Positions 5,852 through 39,919 of a stretch of DNA of 64,000 bases are shown here, in pieces. Location of the stretch: assembly GCF_016065055.1 (NCBI RefSeq), contig NZ_CP065856.1:2417836-2481835 (forward strand), written 5' to 3'. Position 1 is the stretch's first letter, and the number at the start of each line of letters is the position of its first letter. The DNA comes from Halosimplex litoreum (GTDB lineage Archaea; Halobacteriota; Halobacteria; Halobacteriales; Haloarculaceae). Below the pieces are notes generated by a model. That model saw only the letters and a list, made by a program, of their open reading frames with translations. It ran no database searches and had not been told where the DNA came from. The translations under genes and the position numbers were made by a program.

Positions 5852-5879
5852 GACCGCAGCTACGAACTGCGTGAAATCC
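5852..5879. repeat. Degenerate third copy of the element's terminal repeat
   Basis: The stretch ending GAACTGCGTGAAATCC resembles the left terminus GAACAGCGTGAAAGCC of the adjacent palindromic element (14 of 16 positions by eye), and both are preceded by GACCGCAG. It may be a decayed end of an older nested insertion, or chance. Low confidence. Confidence 0.35.
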
Positions 5880-5927
5880 CCTCGAACGGTCACCAGTACC
5901 GCGACTGCAGCGAGATCCAGACCGCAG

Positions 5928-6112
5928 AACAGCGTGAAAGCCTCGCCCCTTTCGTTCCCGCCCGCACAGACTGGCCGATCAGCCGACACGGGTGGGAATG
6001 AAAGGGGCCGCGTGCTCCGGGAAGCACGACGACGTAAGCACCGCAGCGAACGGAGTGAGCGAGGCACGCAGCGAGGCGCGCGAGCGGAGCACGCGGGGGC
6101 TTTCACGCTGTT
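5928..6112. repeat. Modular palindromic element, copy A (one-armed)
   Basis: A 185-bp non-coding element. Terminal inverted repeats are AACAGCGTGAAAGCC at 5928-5942 and its complement at 6098-6112. Next to the left end is a hairpin with 18-bp arms at 5946-5963 and 5990-6007, paired apart from positions compatible with G-U pairs. Then comes an arm closed by a perfect 12-bp stem (6008-6019 with 6085-6096; inner strand CGCGTGCTCCG) around a 65-nt loop that carries a conserved core. The same modules recur at 19819-20092 with a different stem sequence. No transposase or protein signal is present; frames crossing it are low-complexity shadows. It could be a MITE-like element, a REP-like palindrome or a structured RNA. 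Confidence 0.85.
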
Positions 6113-6113
6113 T

Positions 6114-6215
6114 GCAGTCGTGGTCGGTCGAGCGGTCGCAGTCGTGGTCGGTCGAGCGGTCGCAGTCGTGGTCGGTCGAGCGGTCGCAGTCGTGGTCGGT
6201 CGAGCGGTCGCAGTC
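6114..6215. repeat. Tandem repeat, 24-bp period, four copies
   Basis: Four exact 24-bp units (6114-6209) plus a 6-bp partial unit start two bases after the right end of palindromic element copy A. The unit contains GTCGTGG and GGTCGAGCGGTCGC. Translated, it would read as VVVGRAVA repeats, but it precedes the ATG of the next gene and has no conserved protein context. Copy B of the element is followed at the same position by a 15-bp-period repeat that also contains GGTCGTGG. Confidence 0.95.
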
Positions 6216-19818: not shown

Positions 19819-20092
19819 AACAGCGTGAAAGCCCCCGCCGTCTCGGCTCCCGGGACTCGCTGCGCTCCTCGGCTCACTCCGTTCGCCTGCGGTGCTTACG
19901 TCGTCTGGGTTCGCCGAGACGGCGGCCCCTTTCATTCCCGCCCGCACAGACCGACCGGTCAGCCGACACGGGTGGGAATGAAAGGGGCGACGCGTTCGAC
20001 GACGGCCGACGACGCAAGCACTGCAGCGAACGCAGTGAGCGAAGCGCGCAGCGAGGCGCCCGAGTCGAACGCGTCGGGGCTTTCACGCTGTT
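19819..20092. repeat. Modular palindromic element, copy B (two-armed)
   Basis: A 274-bp element with the same terminal inverted repeats as copy A (19819-19833 and 20078-20092). Around a central hairpin (18-bp arms 19926-19943 and 19970-19987, one G-U-type difference) lie two arms in opposite orientation. The left arm is closed by a 13-bp stem (19835-19847 with 19913-19925, CCGCCGTCTCGGC). The right arm is closed by another 13-bp stem (19988-20000 with 20064-20076, CGACGCGTTCGAC). The loops (63-65 nt) share a core with copy A including AAGCAC, GCGAACG, AGTGAGC and CGCAGCGAG, the left one on the opposite strand. Stem sequences are unrelated yet perfectly complementary. It lies between serS and an alpha/beta hydrolase, which are divergent. 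No encoded protein. Confidence 0.87.
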
Positions 20093-20095
20093 CGC

Positions 20096-20224
20096 GGTCG
20101 TGGAGTTGGCGGTCGTGGAGTTGGCGGTCGTGGAGTTGGCGGTCGTGGAGTTGGCGGTCGTGGAGTTGGCGGTCGTAGAGTTGGCGGTCGTGGAGTTGGC
20201 GGTCGTGGAGTTGGCGGTCGTGGC
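20096..20224. repeat. Tandem repeat, 15-bp period, eight copies
   Basis: Eight units of GGTCGTGGAGTTGGC from 20096 to 20215 (one unit with a single substitution) and a 9-bp partial unit. It begins four bases after the right end of palindromic element B, the same relative place as the 24-bp repeat behind copy A. It is not coding: it precedes the start of the next gene by 84 bp. Confidence 0.95.
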
Positions 20225-21252: not shown

Positions 21253-24162
21253 GTGACGGGATTGTGTCCGGGACGAAGCGATTCTGTTAGTGTTCTCGTC
21301 GTGTTGCTCGTGTTCACCAGCGCGGTCGGCGGCGTCGTCGTGGGGGCAGCGGGTGCCGCGGACGCGAGTAGCGCCGAAACGGCGGACTACCGGATGGACG
21401 TGACCGGGACGCTCACTACCGGTGACTGGTACGTCGACCGGTTCGGATACCACGACAACTACACGTTCTACGGGGAGAGCGGAGACAACGTCACCGCCGC
21501 GCTCCGCCAGACCGTCGGTGAGGACGAGAACGTACAGGAGCTGCAGCTGTGGTTGGTCGCGCCGAGCGGTGAGATCGAGACGAGCGAATCGCTGCGTCTC
21601 AAGTACGACCCCTACCAAAACATCAGCGTCGACACTGCTCTCGACGAGACTGGCACATATACGCTCGTGGCAGGGACGACGAACGACGACCCGAACTTCG
21701 ATTACCGGCTCCGGCTCCGTGAGCGACTCGCGACGGCCGATACCGTCGCCTACGGCGACAGAGTCGATGGCGCGGTCACCGCGACCGACGCCTTCTCCGA
21801 CGGGGCCGGGACCGGCGGCGACGACCTCCCCGTGCTTCGAGGGTACCACGACGTCTACGCCTTCGACGGGGTCGAAGGCGACAACGTCACCGCCGAGCTT
21901 CGCCAGACCGTCGGCGAGGACGAGACGGCCGAGCGGCTCGTACTCAAGATGATCGCGCCCAGTGGGGAGGTCGAGACGGTCGAACAGCTCGACATCGAGT
22001 ACGACCCCTACCAGAACATCAGCGTCGACACCTCCCTCGACGAGACCGGCACCTATAGGCTGGTCGTCACAGGCGGGACGGTTACGGGAACCTTCGATTA
22101 CGAGTTGCGCTTCCACCGCCCGTTCGAACCGAACGAGGCGATCGCCTACGGTGACCGGGTCTCCGGTGCGATCACGAAATCGGACGCCTTCTCGGTGTAC
22201 TCGGGGAGTGACCGCGACGACATCCCCGTGCTCGAGGGGTACCACGACGTCTACACGTTCGAGGGCGAGGTCGGCGAGAACGTCACCGCCGAGCTTCGCC
22301 AGACCACCGGGACGGACGAGCCCGCCGAGCCGATCCTGCTGAAACTGGTGGGGCCCGACGGCGGGATCGAAGCGGTCGACCAGCACGACCTCGAGTACGA
22401 TGCCTACCAGAACGTCAGTGTCGACACTTCCCTCGACGCAAACGGCACTTACCGGCTCGTGGTCTCCAGCGCGCGAGTCACCGACACCTTCGATTACGAG
22501 TTGCGCTTCCACCGTCCGTTCGAACCGAACGAGGCGATCGCCTACGGCGACCGGGTCTCCGGTGCGATCACGAAATCGGACGCGTTCTCGGTGTACTCGG
22601 GGAGCGACCGCGACGACATCCCCGTGCTCGAGGGGTACCACGACGTCTACACGTTCGAGGGCGAGGTCGGCGACAACGTTACCGCCGAGCTCCGCCAGAC
22701 CACCGGGACGGACGAGCCCGCCGAGCCGATCCTGCTGAAACTGGTGGGGCCCGACGGCGGGATCGAAGCGGTCGACCAGCACGACCTCGAGTACGATGCC
22801 TACCAGAACGTCAGTGTCGACACTTCCCTCGACGCAAACGGCACTTACCGGCTCGTGGTCACCAGCGCGCGAGTCACGGACACCTTCGACTACCAGTTGC
22901 GCCTCCACCGCTCGCTGGCGACGGGGGATTCGCTGGCGTACGGTGACCGGGTCTCCGGTGCGATCACGAAATCGGACGCGTTCTCGGTGTACTCGGGGAG
23001 CGACCGCGACGACATCCCCGTGCTCGAGGGGTACCACGACATCTACACGTTCGAGGGCGAGGTCGGCGAGAACGTCACCGCCGAGCTCCGCCAGACCACC
23101 GGGACGGACGAGCCCGCCGAGCCGATCCTGCTGAAGCTGGTAGCACCGAGCGGCGAGGTCGAAGCCGTCGAACAACACGACCTCGAGTACGACCCCAACC
23201 TGAACATCAGTCTCGACTCCTCGCTCGACGAGACCGGCATCTACCGGCTCGTGGTCACGAGCGCGGAAGTGACCGACACCTTCGACTATCGACTCCGGCT
23301 CCACGAACGCCTGGCGACGAACGAGACGCTCGCCTACGGCGACCGGGTCACTGGCGCGGTCACCACCGCCGACGACTTCTCCGACGTCGACGGGACCGAC
23401 GACGGACTCCCGACGCTCGACGGCTACCACGACGTCTACGCCGTCGAGGGTGAGGCGGGCGAGAACGTCAGCGCGGTACTCGAACAGACCGGGAGCGGTT
23501 CCGCCGAAGCGATCACGCTGAAACTGGTCGCGCCGAGCGGCGACCTCGAAGCCGTCGACCAGTACGACCTCCAGTACGACAGCGACAACAGCGTCGGCGT
23601 CGACACCGCCCTCGAAGAGACGGGGCGGTACAAGCTGGTCGTCGAGGGGATACAACTCACGGACACGTTCGAGTACGCGCTGAACGTGACCGGTCCTGCC
23701 CCCGAACCGACGACGCCGCCGACCGCGGCGCTGTCGGTCTCGCCGGCGACCGCGACGGTCGGCGAGACAGTGACCTTCGAGGCCGAAGCGTCGACGGACA
23801 CCGACGGCTCGGTCGTCGAGTACGCCTGGGACTTCGACGGCGACGGGACGGTCGACCGGACGACGACGACGGCGACGGTGACACACGACTACGGAGCCAG
23901 CGGCGACTACGCCGCGAGCGTGACCGTCACCGACGGCGACGGGCTAACGGATTCGACGAGCGAGACGGTCACGGTCGAAGCCGCGAACCAGATCCCGGAC
24001 GATGCAGTCTACGAACCGGGAAGTGTCGCCGCCGAGTTCGACGCCGACACCGACGGCCGAATTAGCATCGGTGAACTCGCGACAGCGGCAGAGACCTTCG
24101 CGTCCGGCGAACTCCGGATCTCCGGACTCGCGACGATAGCGGAAGCGTTTGCCGCCAGCTGA
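21253..24162 (+). CDS. Secreted six-repeat PPC-like / PKD / dockerin-like surface protein
   Basis: About 969 residues. A Sec-type signal (VLVVLLVFTSAVGGVVVGAAGAADA) is followed by six beta-rich repeats resembling PPC (pre-peptidase C-terminal) domains: YGDRVSGAIT, HDVYTFEGEVGENVTAELRQ, and a GTYRLVV strand. The spacing is exactly 396 bp, or 132 residues, for all six; equivalent points fall at 21748, 22144, 22540, 22936 and 23332. Units 3-5 are almost identical DNA. A PKD domain follows (YAWDFDGDGTVD), then a dockerin-like EF-hand DADTDGRISIGEL near the C-terminus. Many N-x-S/T sequons suggest N-glycosylation. No ATG is available: TTG at 21232 or GTG at 21253 could start it, the latter chosen. 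Probably an adhesin or binding protein; partner unknown. Confidence 0.87.
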   Translation: MTGLCPGRSDSVSVLVVLLVFTSAVGGVVVGAAGAADASSAETADYRMDVTGTLTTGDWYVDRFGYHDNYTFYGESGDNVTAALRQTVGEDENVQELQLWLVAPSGEIETSESLRLKYDPYQNISVDTALDETGTYTLVAGTTNDDPNFDYRLRLRERLATADTVAYGDRVDGAVTATDAFSDGAGTGGDDLPVLRGYHDVYAFDGVEGDNVTAELRQTVGEDETAERLVLKMIAPSGEVETVEQLDIEYDPYQNISVDTSLDETGTYRLVVTGGTVTGTFDYELRFHRPFEPNEAIAYGDRVSGAITKSDAFSVYSGSDRDDIPVLEGYHDVYTFEGEVGENVTAELRQTTGTDEPAEPILLKLVGPDGGIEAVDQHDLEYDAYQNVSVDTSLDANGTYRLVVSSARVTDTFDYELRFHRPFEPNEAIAYGDRVSGAITKSDAFSVYSGSDRDDIPVLEGYHDVYTFEGEVGDNVTAELRQTTGTDEPAEPILLKLVGPDGGIEAVDQHDLEYDAYQNVSVDTSLDANGTYRLVVTSARVTDTFDYQLRLHRSLATGDSLAYGDRVSGAITKSDAFSVYSGSDRDDIPVLEGYHDIYTFEGEVGENVTAELRQTTGTDEPAEPILLKLVAPSGEVEAVEQHDLEYDPNLNISLDSSLDETGIYRLVVTSAEVTDTFDYRLRLHERLATNETLAYGDRVTGAVTTADDFSDVDGTDDGLPTLDGYHDVYAVEGEAGENVSAVLEQTGSGSAEAITLKLVAPSGDLEAVDQYDLQYDSDNSVGVDTALEETGRYKLVVEGIQLTDTFEYALNVTGPAPEPTTPPTAALSVSPATATVGETVTFEAEASTDTDGSVVEYAWDFDGDGTVDRTTTTATVTHDYGASGDYAASVTVTDGDGLTDSTSETVTVEAANQIPDDAVYEPGSVAAEFDADTDGRISIGELATAAETFASGELRISGLATIAEAFAAS

Positions 24163-38330: not shown

Positions 38331-38502
38331 CGACTCGAAAAACGTGGGCGAAAAACCGGTCGCCTCGCTCGCTGGGCTCACGGGTCGCTCCGCTCCCCGT
38401 TCGCAACGAGATACTCCCTTCGGTCGCACCTCGCTACACTCGCTCGCGACCGGGCAACCGCGCGCCGAGGGCGCGCGGACGCTACGGCAGCGAGAACTCG
38501 AT
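38331..38502. repeat. Direct repeat copy 1 (duplicated thiolase 3' flank)
   Basis: A 172-bp segment nearly identical to 38628-38800, offset 297 bp. It includes CCGGTCGC and its complement GCGACCGG around an about 90-nt loop, the hairpin CGCGCGCC/GGCGCGCG, and a copy of the last seven thiolase codons reading to the stop (right end at 38502). That gene tail is severed here and is non-functional. Confidence 0.92.
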
Positions 38503-38627
38503 AGACACGCCGCTGCCACCTTTTTCTCGTCGGGTATCCTCGCTCGCTGCGCTCGCTGTGGATACCGCTCTCTGTTCACGGGCGCTTCGCGCCCGTTCGC
38601 ACGGTCAGCGGGACCGGAGGTCCCGCT
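38503..38627. repeat. Cluster of short perfect hairpins between the direct repeats
   Basis: Three separate stem-loops in 125 bp: GGTATCC/GGATACC around a 20-nt loop, ACGGGCG/CGCCCGT with a CTTCG loop and GCGGGACC/GGTCCCGC with a 3-nt loop. They lie between convergent or tandem gene ends and could act in transcript 3' end stability. No coding signal. Confidence 0.75.
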
Positions 38628-38800
38628 CGACTCGAAAAAGATGGGGCAAAAAGCCGGTCGCCTCGCTCGCTGGGCTCACGGGTCGCTCCGCTCCCCGTTC
38701 GCAACGAGGTACTCCCTTCGGTCGCACCTCGCTACACTCGCTCGCGACCGGGGAACCGCGCGCCGAGGGCGCGCGGACGCTACGGCAGCGAGAACTCGAT
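38628..38800. repeat. Direct repeat copy 2 (includes thiolase stop)
   Basis: The second copy of the 172-bp repeat. Its right end overlaps the last seven codons and the stop of the thiolase gene (stop at 38780-38782), so this copy is the ancestral position and the one at 38331 the duplicate. Confidence 0.92.
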
Positions 38801-39919
38801 CGCCGCGCCCTGACCGAAGCCGACGCACTCGGTCGCCAGTCCCAGGTCGGCGTCGCGCTCGTTCATCTCGTGGATCAGCGTCACCGGGAGTCGGGCACCG
38901 GAGGCGCCGAGCGGGTGGCCGATGGCGATGGCGCCGCCGTTGACGTTGTAGATGTCGTCGTCGAAGCCGAGCTCGCGCTGGCAGTACAGCGCCTGGCTCG
39001 CGAACGCCTCGTTGAGTTCGACCAGGTCGTAGTCGTCGGTGTCGCGGCCGGTCCGCTCGCAGAGCTTGCGGACCGCCGGGACGGGCCCGACGCCCATGAT
39101 CGTCGGGTCGACGCCCGCGACCATGTGATTCCCCACCTCGGCGAGCACGTCTAGGTCGTGGTCGTCGGCGAACGCGCGGGAGGTGATCATCGTCCCCGAG
39201 GCGCCGTCGGAAATCTGGGAGGCGTTGCCCGGCGTGATCGTCCCGTCGCTCTTGAAGACGGTGGGCAGTCCCGAGAGGGTCTCGAGGGAGGTGTCCCGGC
39301 GGATGCCCTCGTCCTCGGAGACGGTGCCCTCCTCGGTCTCGACCGGGACGATCTCGTCGTCGAATCGACCCGAGTCGGTGGCCTCGCCGGCGCGCTGGTG
39401 GCTGCGCAGCGCGAACTCGTCCTGGTCTTCCCGCGAGACGTCGTACTCCTCGGCGACCTTCTCGGCGGTCATCCCCATCTGTAGCTCGCCGATGTTGTAC
39501 AGTTCGGCGAGCCGCGGGTGGACGTTGTGGGTGTTCTGACCGAGTTCGACGCGGGACATCGACTCCACCCCGCCGGCGATGACGCAGTCGCGTTGCCCGG
39601 CCGCGACGGCGTCGGCGGCGCGCATGATCGCCTCCGCCGAGGAGGCACACCAGCGGTTGATCGTCGCCGCGGGGACCGACTCGCCGAGATCCGAGAGGAG
39701 GGCCACCACCCGAGCCACGTTGTTGCCCTGTTCGTCCCGCTGCTGGGCGCAGCCCCACAGCAGGTCGTCGACCTGCTCGCTCGCCACGCCCGTGTCGGCG
39801 AGCATCTCGTTCACCAGCGGGACCGACAGGTCCTCGCTGCGCACGTCCGCGAAGGCACCGTCCTCCTTGCCCTGTGGTGTCCGTCGCGCCTGCACGACGA
39901 CCGGTGTCGCGTCACTCAT
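38780..39919 (-). CDS. Thiolase (acetyl-CoA C-acyltransferase)
   Basis: A 379-residue thiolase. The acyl-accepting Cys91 lies in [13 protein letters not shown] is present, the catalytic His is in [16 protein letters not shown] and the second Cys in [12 protein letters not shown]. The family condenses or cleaves beta-ketoacyl-CoA, in fatty-acid oxidation or polyhydroxyalkanoate and acetoacetyl-CoA synthesis; the length and degradative-type motifs fit an acyltransferase of beta-oxidation. The ATG at 39919 is standard. The gene is monocistronic, and its 3' flank has been duplicated. Confidence 0.95.

Follow-up and report, generated by a model that had tools for sequence, protein, structure and literature searches.

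Compensatory change holds the arms of haloarchaeal repetitive palindromic elements to one fold

Three hairpin arms in the 64-kb stretch of Halosimplex DNA analyzed here (the window) raised the question of what keeps a stem paired while its letters change. A sequence-only reading had described self-complementary stems of unrelated sequence, at positions 6008-6096, 19835-19925, and 19988-20076, around a fixed, conserved loop core. When the window was scanned blind for 12-bp perfect inverted repeats enclosing loops of 55-75 nt, all three arms were recovered at these positions, together with one unrelated match, whereas first-order Markov sequences matched in length gave a mean of 0.75 such matches; the three arms thus exist and are not due to chance. 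As more than 100 related sequences could be collected, the family offers a natural covariation experiment on whether evolution can preserve a single-stranded DNA fold, and on which protein reads it. The parts of the two elements found in the window are the following.

19819..19835, minus strand: left outer inverted end GGGGCTTTCACGCTGTT, the 17-mer that bounds elements genome-wide in inverted pairs
19826..19934, minus strand: left arm in the canonical fold, with the 13-bp stem 19835-19847 paired to 19913-19925 (C+CGCCGTCTCGGC)
19925..19988, no strand: element centre, made of GCCCCTTTCATTCCCGCCC, a quasi-palindromic spacer, and GGGTGGGAATGAAAGGGGC; dimers of other genera have a similar centre
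19979..20085, plus strand: right arm in the canonical fold, with the 13-bp stem 19988-20000 paired to 20064-20076 (C+GACGCGTTCGAC)
20076..20092, plus strand: right outer inverted end GGGGCTTTCACGCTGTT, the 17-mer end
20090..20223, plus strand: tandem array of about 9 copies of a 15-bp unit, beginning at the outer end of the element
5928..5963, minus strand: left-half remnant of the second element, AACAGCGTGAAAGCC joined to GCCCCTTTCGTTCCCGCCC, the left arm missing
5990..6008, plus strand: centre motif GGGTGGGAATGAAAGGGGC of the second element
5999..6105, plus strand: right arm of the second element, with the stem 6008-6019 paired to 6085-6096 (C+CGCGTGCTCCG)
6096..6112, plus strand: right outer end GGGGCTTTCACGCTGTT of the second element
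6114..6214, plus strand: tandem array of about 4.2 copies of a 24-bp unit, beginning at the outer end of the second element

Across 19819-20092, the order is AACAGCGTGAAAGCCCC, left arm, GCCCCTTTCATTCCCGCCC, quasi-palindromic spacer, GGGTGGGAATGAAAGGGGC, right arm, and GGGGCTTTCACGCTGTT; the one at 5928-6112 no longer has a left arm. Both elements lie between divergent genes, one with a seryl-tRNA synthetase gene and an alpha/beta hydrolase gene as neighbours, the other flanked by an RraA-like gene and a metallo-beta-lactamase-fold gene. The window genome holds about 20 full or partial copies, and the 17-mer outer end occurs in 42 copies with at most 2 mismatches, at about 20 element sites. 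In a full element, two arms of about 107 nt stand in inverted orientation on either side of a conserved centre. The sites are intergenic, with neighbouring genes in mixed orientation, and the elements are non-coding and contain no ORF. Other repeats were also noted: 63-bp duplications, made of the outer end motif and about 46 bp, at 5865-5942 of the window and at two other loci (L075 and L080), in which AACAGCGTGAAAGCCCC recurs 63 bp apart; 396-bp direct repeats in five to six copies within a long ORF for a repeat-containing protein (21350-23680); and a 166-nt direct repeat present twice with 96% identity and a spacing of 298 bp (38346-38809).

Arms were collected from the window genome and its relatives, with H. 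pelagicum (G003), H. salinum (G004), H. aquaticum (G005), and H. carlsbadense (G007) as the same-genus comparison genomes; 152 arms were extracted, 121 were clean, and 106 were aligned on the canonical strand (A1). Counting related arms as independent, as most of our statistics do, 98.5% of the cells of the 13-bp stem were standard pairs and 429 were doubly changed. The stem covariation score was 0.808, against 0.222 for shuffled and at most 0.09 for slid alignments, so the covariation anticipated from three arms was borne out in 106. The sequence-only reading had gone further and placed compensatory change at every position. Among Halosimplex and its relatives, double changes were seen at least once in 12 of the 13 stem pairs; of these 12, however, one is nearly invariant (U-A in 104 of 106 arms), and the basal C-G pair is invariant in this group, being A-T in some other genera. 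The stems are not wholly unrelated: among the 121 clean arms they are loosely patterned, roughly as NNNNYGYTCCGG and GACNCGTTCGAC, and some recur.

The loop core, on the other hand, is conserved but not fixed. RNAalifold independently recovered both the stem and a set of inner helices, in which 294 cells were doubly changed; none of 500 shuffles reached the observed count, percentage paired, or covariation score. The whole arm is therefore a covarying structure, and the stem renewal that had been proposed around a fixed loop, although real as far as the stems are concerned, is part of a general compensatory drift. The outer helix was also compensated in 43 arms from other genera (5 arms had C-G in place of G2-C, 4 had G-C in place of A3-T, and 3 had A-T in place of the basal C-G), about 42 of which carried a GGG/GGG internal loop.

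Between the covarying helices, unpaired features were conserved. Three tandem G·A motifs were found in the 106 arms (G·A in 97 with A·G in 87, G·A in 102 with A·G in 92, and G·A in 91 with A·G in 99), together with a C·C mismatch in 81 and an apical GNA triloop, N being any base, in 96. Internal loops such as GYAAGCAC and GCGCAGCGAG were conserved, an upstream GGGNGGG was exact in 76% of 117 class-wide arms, and the inverted ends GGGGCTTTC proved to belong to the arm fold. The canonical fold thus consists of a 5-bp basal helix, the GGG/GGG internal loop, and the 13-bp stem of free sequence, followed by short helices split by the tandem G·A motifs, the C·C mismatch, and the GNA triloop. Wobble pairs in the stem were asymmetric (18 G·T versus 3 A·C, p = 0.0015), indicating that the written strand is the folding strand. 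These results show that one strand of each arm is held to one fold by compensatory change. In the arm loops of three loci (L057, L048, and L289), secondary insertions that are themselves hairpins (e.g., GTTCGAGAGAGCGAAGCTCTCTCG...GACAGCGA) were observed at similar places in several species.

How stems change was followed at orthologous sites, defined by their flanking genes, which formed 18 groups. Several species carried an element at the same site with stems that differed yet were still perfect. In three groups, the whole element was inverted relative to its neighbours (L039/L122, L087/L096, and the window element/L129 of G007); between the window element and its inverted counterpart, the stem of one arm was unchanged and the other differed by one compensated pair. 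Small stem changes look like single compensated pairs. At the same sites, element-free species had 8-50 bp between the matched flanks, against 300-480 bp, and the flanking intergenic DNA at these empty sites was too diverged for a target duplication to be read. Over all pairs, the mean number of stem differences was 4.96 and 5.37 for orthologous arms versus 5.35 for non-orthologous ones, so that orthology made stems scarcely more similar. In three arms (L102, minus; L112, plus; L114, minus), the loop runs opposite to the stem and flanks that enclose it, which points to local inversion inside the hairpin. At orthologous intergenic sites, elements thus come and go, are inverted, and acquire different stems.

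Such rearrangements count in favour of passive maintenance of the pairing, by templated quasi-palindrome correction and gene conversion between copies, with no selection on the fold. Recombination at these palindromes is evident from both kinds of inversion, and stem and loop are decoupled, as loops at least 95% identical can carry stems that differ at 4-7 positions. Correction, however, yields perfect palindromes, whereas the C·C mismatch, the three tandem G·A motifs, and the GGG/GGG loop persist between covarying pairs, and the excess of G·T over A·C would be left unexplained. Palindrome correction as the sole cause was rejected since the mismatches are conserved across the class, and we regard a purely passive origin as very improbable. 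As correction is unable to retain mismatches, the best reading is selection on one folded strand, in which the fold is kept rather than the letters. The earlier suggestion of selection or a mechanism acting on folded DNA or RNA is, on this reading, narrowed to its first half.

The two arms of one element were never closely alike. None of 43 within-element arm pairs had three or fewer stem differences, compared with 170 of 737 paralogous pairs (p = 3e-5). One possible reason is that pairing between the two arms is avoided; another is simple inheritance from an old A/B pair. Tandem arrays starting from element ends were also observed, within 60 bp of 8 of 78 elements, against one case at 60-200 bp and one at 200-600 bp, a strong enrichment next to the elements. 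Their units of 9-24 bp differ from element to element (both window elements, L090, L113, L133, L047, L043, and L124), as would be expected from slippage next to a DNA structure. The family may also be a hotspot of inversion and of tandem-repeat birth in archaeal chromosomes.

The distribution of the family was examined with a covariance model, R1, with which the right arm at 19979..20085 scored 122 bits in a whole-genome search. R1 matched 126 of 145 sampled haloarchaeal genomes (~87%; 19 were negative), often with at least 20 copies and in many genomes of the class with at least 27. This structural element is apparently unannotated. In a phylum-wide sample, 17 of 19 haloarchaea and none of 101 non-haloarchaeal genomes were positive. 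Matches were also found on 29 haloarchaeal plasmids, mostly in stretches without an annotated gene. A viral origin was rejected, as phage records and IMG/VR viral contigs gave no matches. When 18 loci were compared with Rfam, none reached the gathering threshold and the window gave only sub-threshold hairpin matches; motif and keyword searches of the open-access literature returned no description of the family. The unit differs by genus, being a single arm in some and a pair with a similar centre in others, and in many genera the single arm lacks a far inverted end. Stem variety also depends on the lineage. Stems are varied in Halosimplex and its relatives; in the Haloarcula group, where five loci have ACGCCGCTGGCG in common, and in the genus g20, with two recurrent stem sequences, they are nearly fixed, a point on which the sequence-only reading needs amendment. 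The arms thus appear to be the working units of a family of repetitive palindromic elements that extends across the haloarchaeal class and had gone unreported.

Inverted ends, intergenic location, the lack of an ORF, copy numbers in the tens, and presence or absence at orthologous sites are all features of MITE-like or SMR-like non-autonomous elements, which a transposase binding the inverted ends would move in trans, the hairpins being structural cargo. Haloquadratum SMRs offer a precedent, as they are transposase-free, have inverted ends, and make no target duplication (PMC3119063). The single-arm units of many genera, however, indicate that the conserved unit is the arm and not the inverted-end pair; the ends GGGGCTTTC are themselves part of the arm fold; and the copies diverge far beyond what is seen among recent transposon copies. 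We therefore consider this explanation unlikely.

Selection on a folded strand leaves the choice between RNA and DNA. Were the arms a structured RNA, either a small RNA or part of intergenic transcripts, the elements would be multi-copy genes. A covarying multi-helix fold with conserved internal loops is typical of such RNAs, G·U is tolerated above A·C, and at position 38-85 an RNA-like T·G wobble is common (29 of 106 arms), which also counts against DNA. But G·U makes up only ~1.4% of stem cells, apical loops are nearly all GNA triloops, a favourite of DNA, and not tetraloops, and no Rfam family was matched. Moreover, single arms of g20 showed no strand bias relative to neighbouring genes (upstream gene on the same strand in 20 cases and on the opposite strand in 15; downstream, 17 versus 21), inspection of the DNA directly upstream of single arms revealed G-rich sequence with no evident TATA box, and whole elements are freely inverted at orthologous sites. 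A structured RNA is thus possible but rather doubtful. A cis-regulatory UTR element was likewise judged unlikely, given the lack of strand bias in g20 and the free inversion. A passage of PMC6479982 citing Yoshizawa 1997 presents GNA triloops as an ultra-stable DNA turn. Taken together, the triloops, the absence of gene-strand bias, and the orthologous inversions make DNA the more probable form, and are not proof of it; the tandem arrays that begin at element ends also speak for DNA.

Our overall explanation, to which we give about an even chance, is that the arms are constrained by their fold and recognized as single-stranded DNA by a structure-specific protein. Recognition would take place at forks, in extruded cruciforms, or during transfer. 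By analogy with TnpA_REP on REP hairpins, the putative protein would read the mismatches, the loop, and the GGGYGGGANTGAAAGGGG head and be indifferent to the letters of the stem, so that stems could drift freely provided that pairing holds. The arms of one element would be kept unlike so that each folds on itself and the two do not zip into one long palindrome, although nearest-neighbour predictions for the whole element favour a single long hairpin, which runs counter to two-arm folding. The IS200/IS605 TnpA was rejected as a partner: in Halosimplex, genes with PF01797 (IS200-type Y1) number at most two per genome and none adjoins an arm, and H. aquaticum has at least 15 element sites and no PF01797 gene; a partner enzyme was not found by this search. 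Along the chromosome of genome G044, element orientation suggested a replication-strand bias by eye, but no significant regional bias was detected (p = 0.17), and no link to replication forks is thus shown. More specifically, and only tentatively, this class-wide single-stranded fold under selection, with its GNA triloop, tandem sheared G·A motifs, GGG/GGG loop, and a possible quadruplex-duplex hybrid with GGGNGGG, might be the recognition site of a haloarchaeal structure-specific recombinase or replication factor. The quadruplex itself is suggested only by the conservation of GGGNGGG and GGG/GGG.

Among known systems, the closest functional analogue is the REP/BIME family of bacteria. REPs are repetitive and extragenic, occur as single hairpins or as inverted pairs that are often heterodimers with unlike stems, and have palindromes preserved through complementary mutations (PMC2817692, PMC3733652). 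TnpA_REP recognizes the single-stranded hairpin in a strand-specific manner, via conserved mismatches and a 5' motif (PMC8266576). The haloarchaeal arms have in common with REP/BIME the many extragenic copies and the single or inverted-pair arrangement, but their internal architecture is different. REP palindromes are 20-40 nt long and the arms about 107 nt; REPs bear a GTAG or CGTC tag, whereas the 5' head of the arms is GGGYGGGANTGAAAGGGG or GGGYGGGAMTGAAAGGGG; and REPs flank a Y1 (HUH) transposase gene (RAYT), which is not adjacent to the arms. As tag, length, and adjacent Y1 all differ, we describe the arms as a new REP-like haloarchaeal family and not as REPs.

Within haloarchaea, the PATEs of Haloquadratum are palindromic and transposase-free, originate from IS605 ends, and have no inverted terminal repeats, while among SMRs the identity between copies commonly exceeds 95% and IS605 palindromes are the target of some (PMC3119063). 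The arm family resembles PATEs as transposase-free palindromic repeats of haloarchaea, but its full elements are bounded by inverted 17-bp ends, a link to an IS200/IS605 gene is absent here, and it holds one conserved fold across the class. With SMRs, it has in common inverted ends and no recognized transposase, but its copies are divergent yet structurally constrained, by which description it is set apart. Finally, at the attC sites of integrons, what the enzyme reads is a single strand in folded form, which has extrahelical bases and stems that vary. The arms resemble attC in being a folded strand with variable stems, but no cassette array or integrase was noticed, and the two folds differ.
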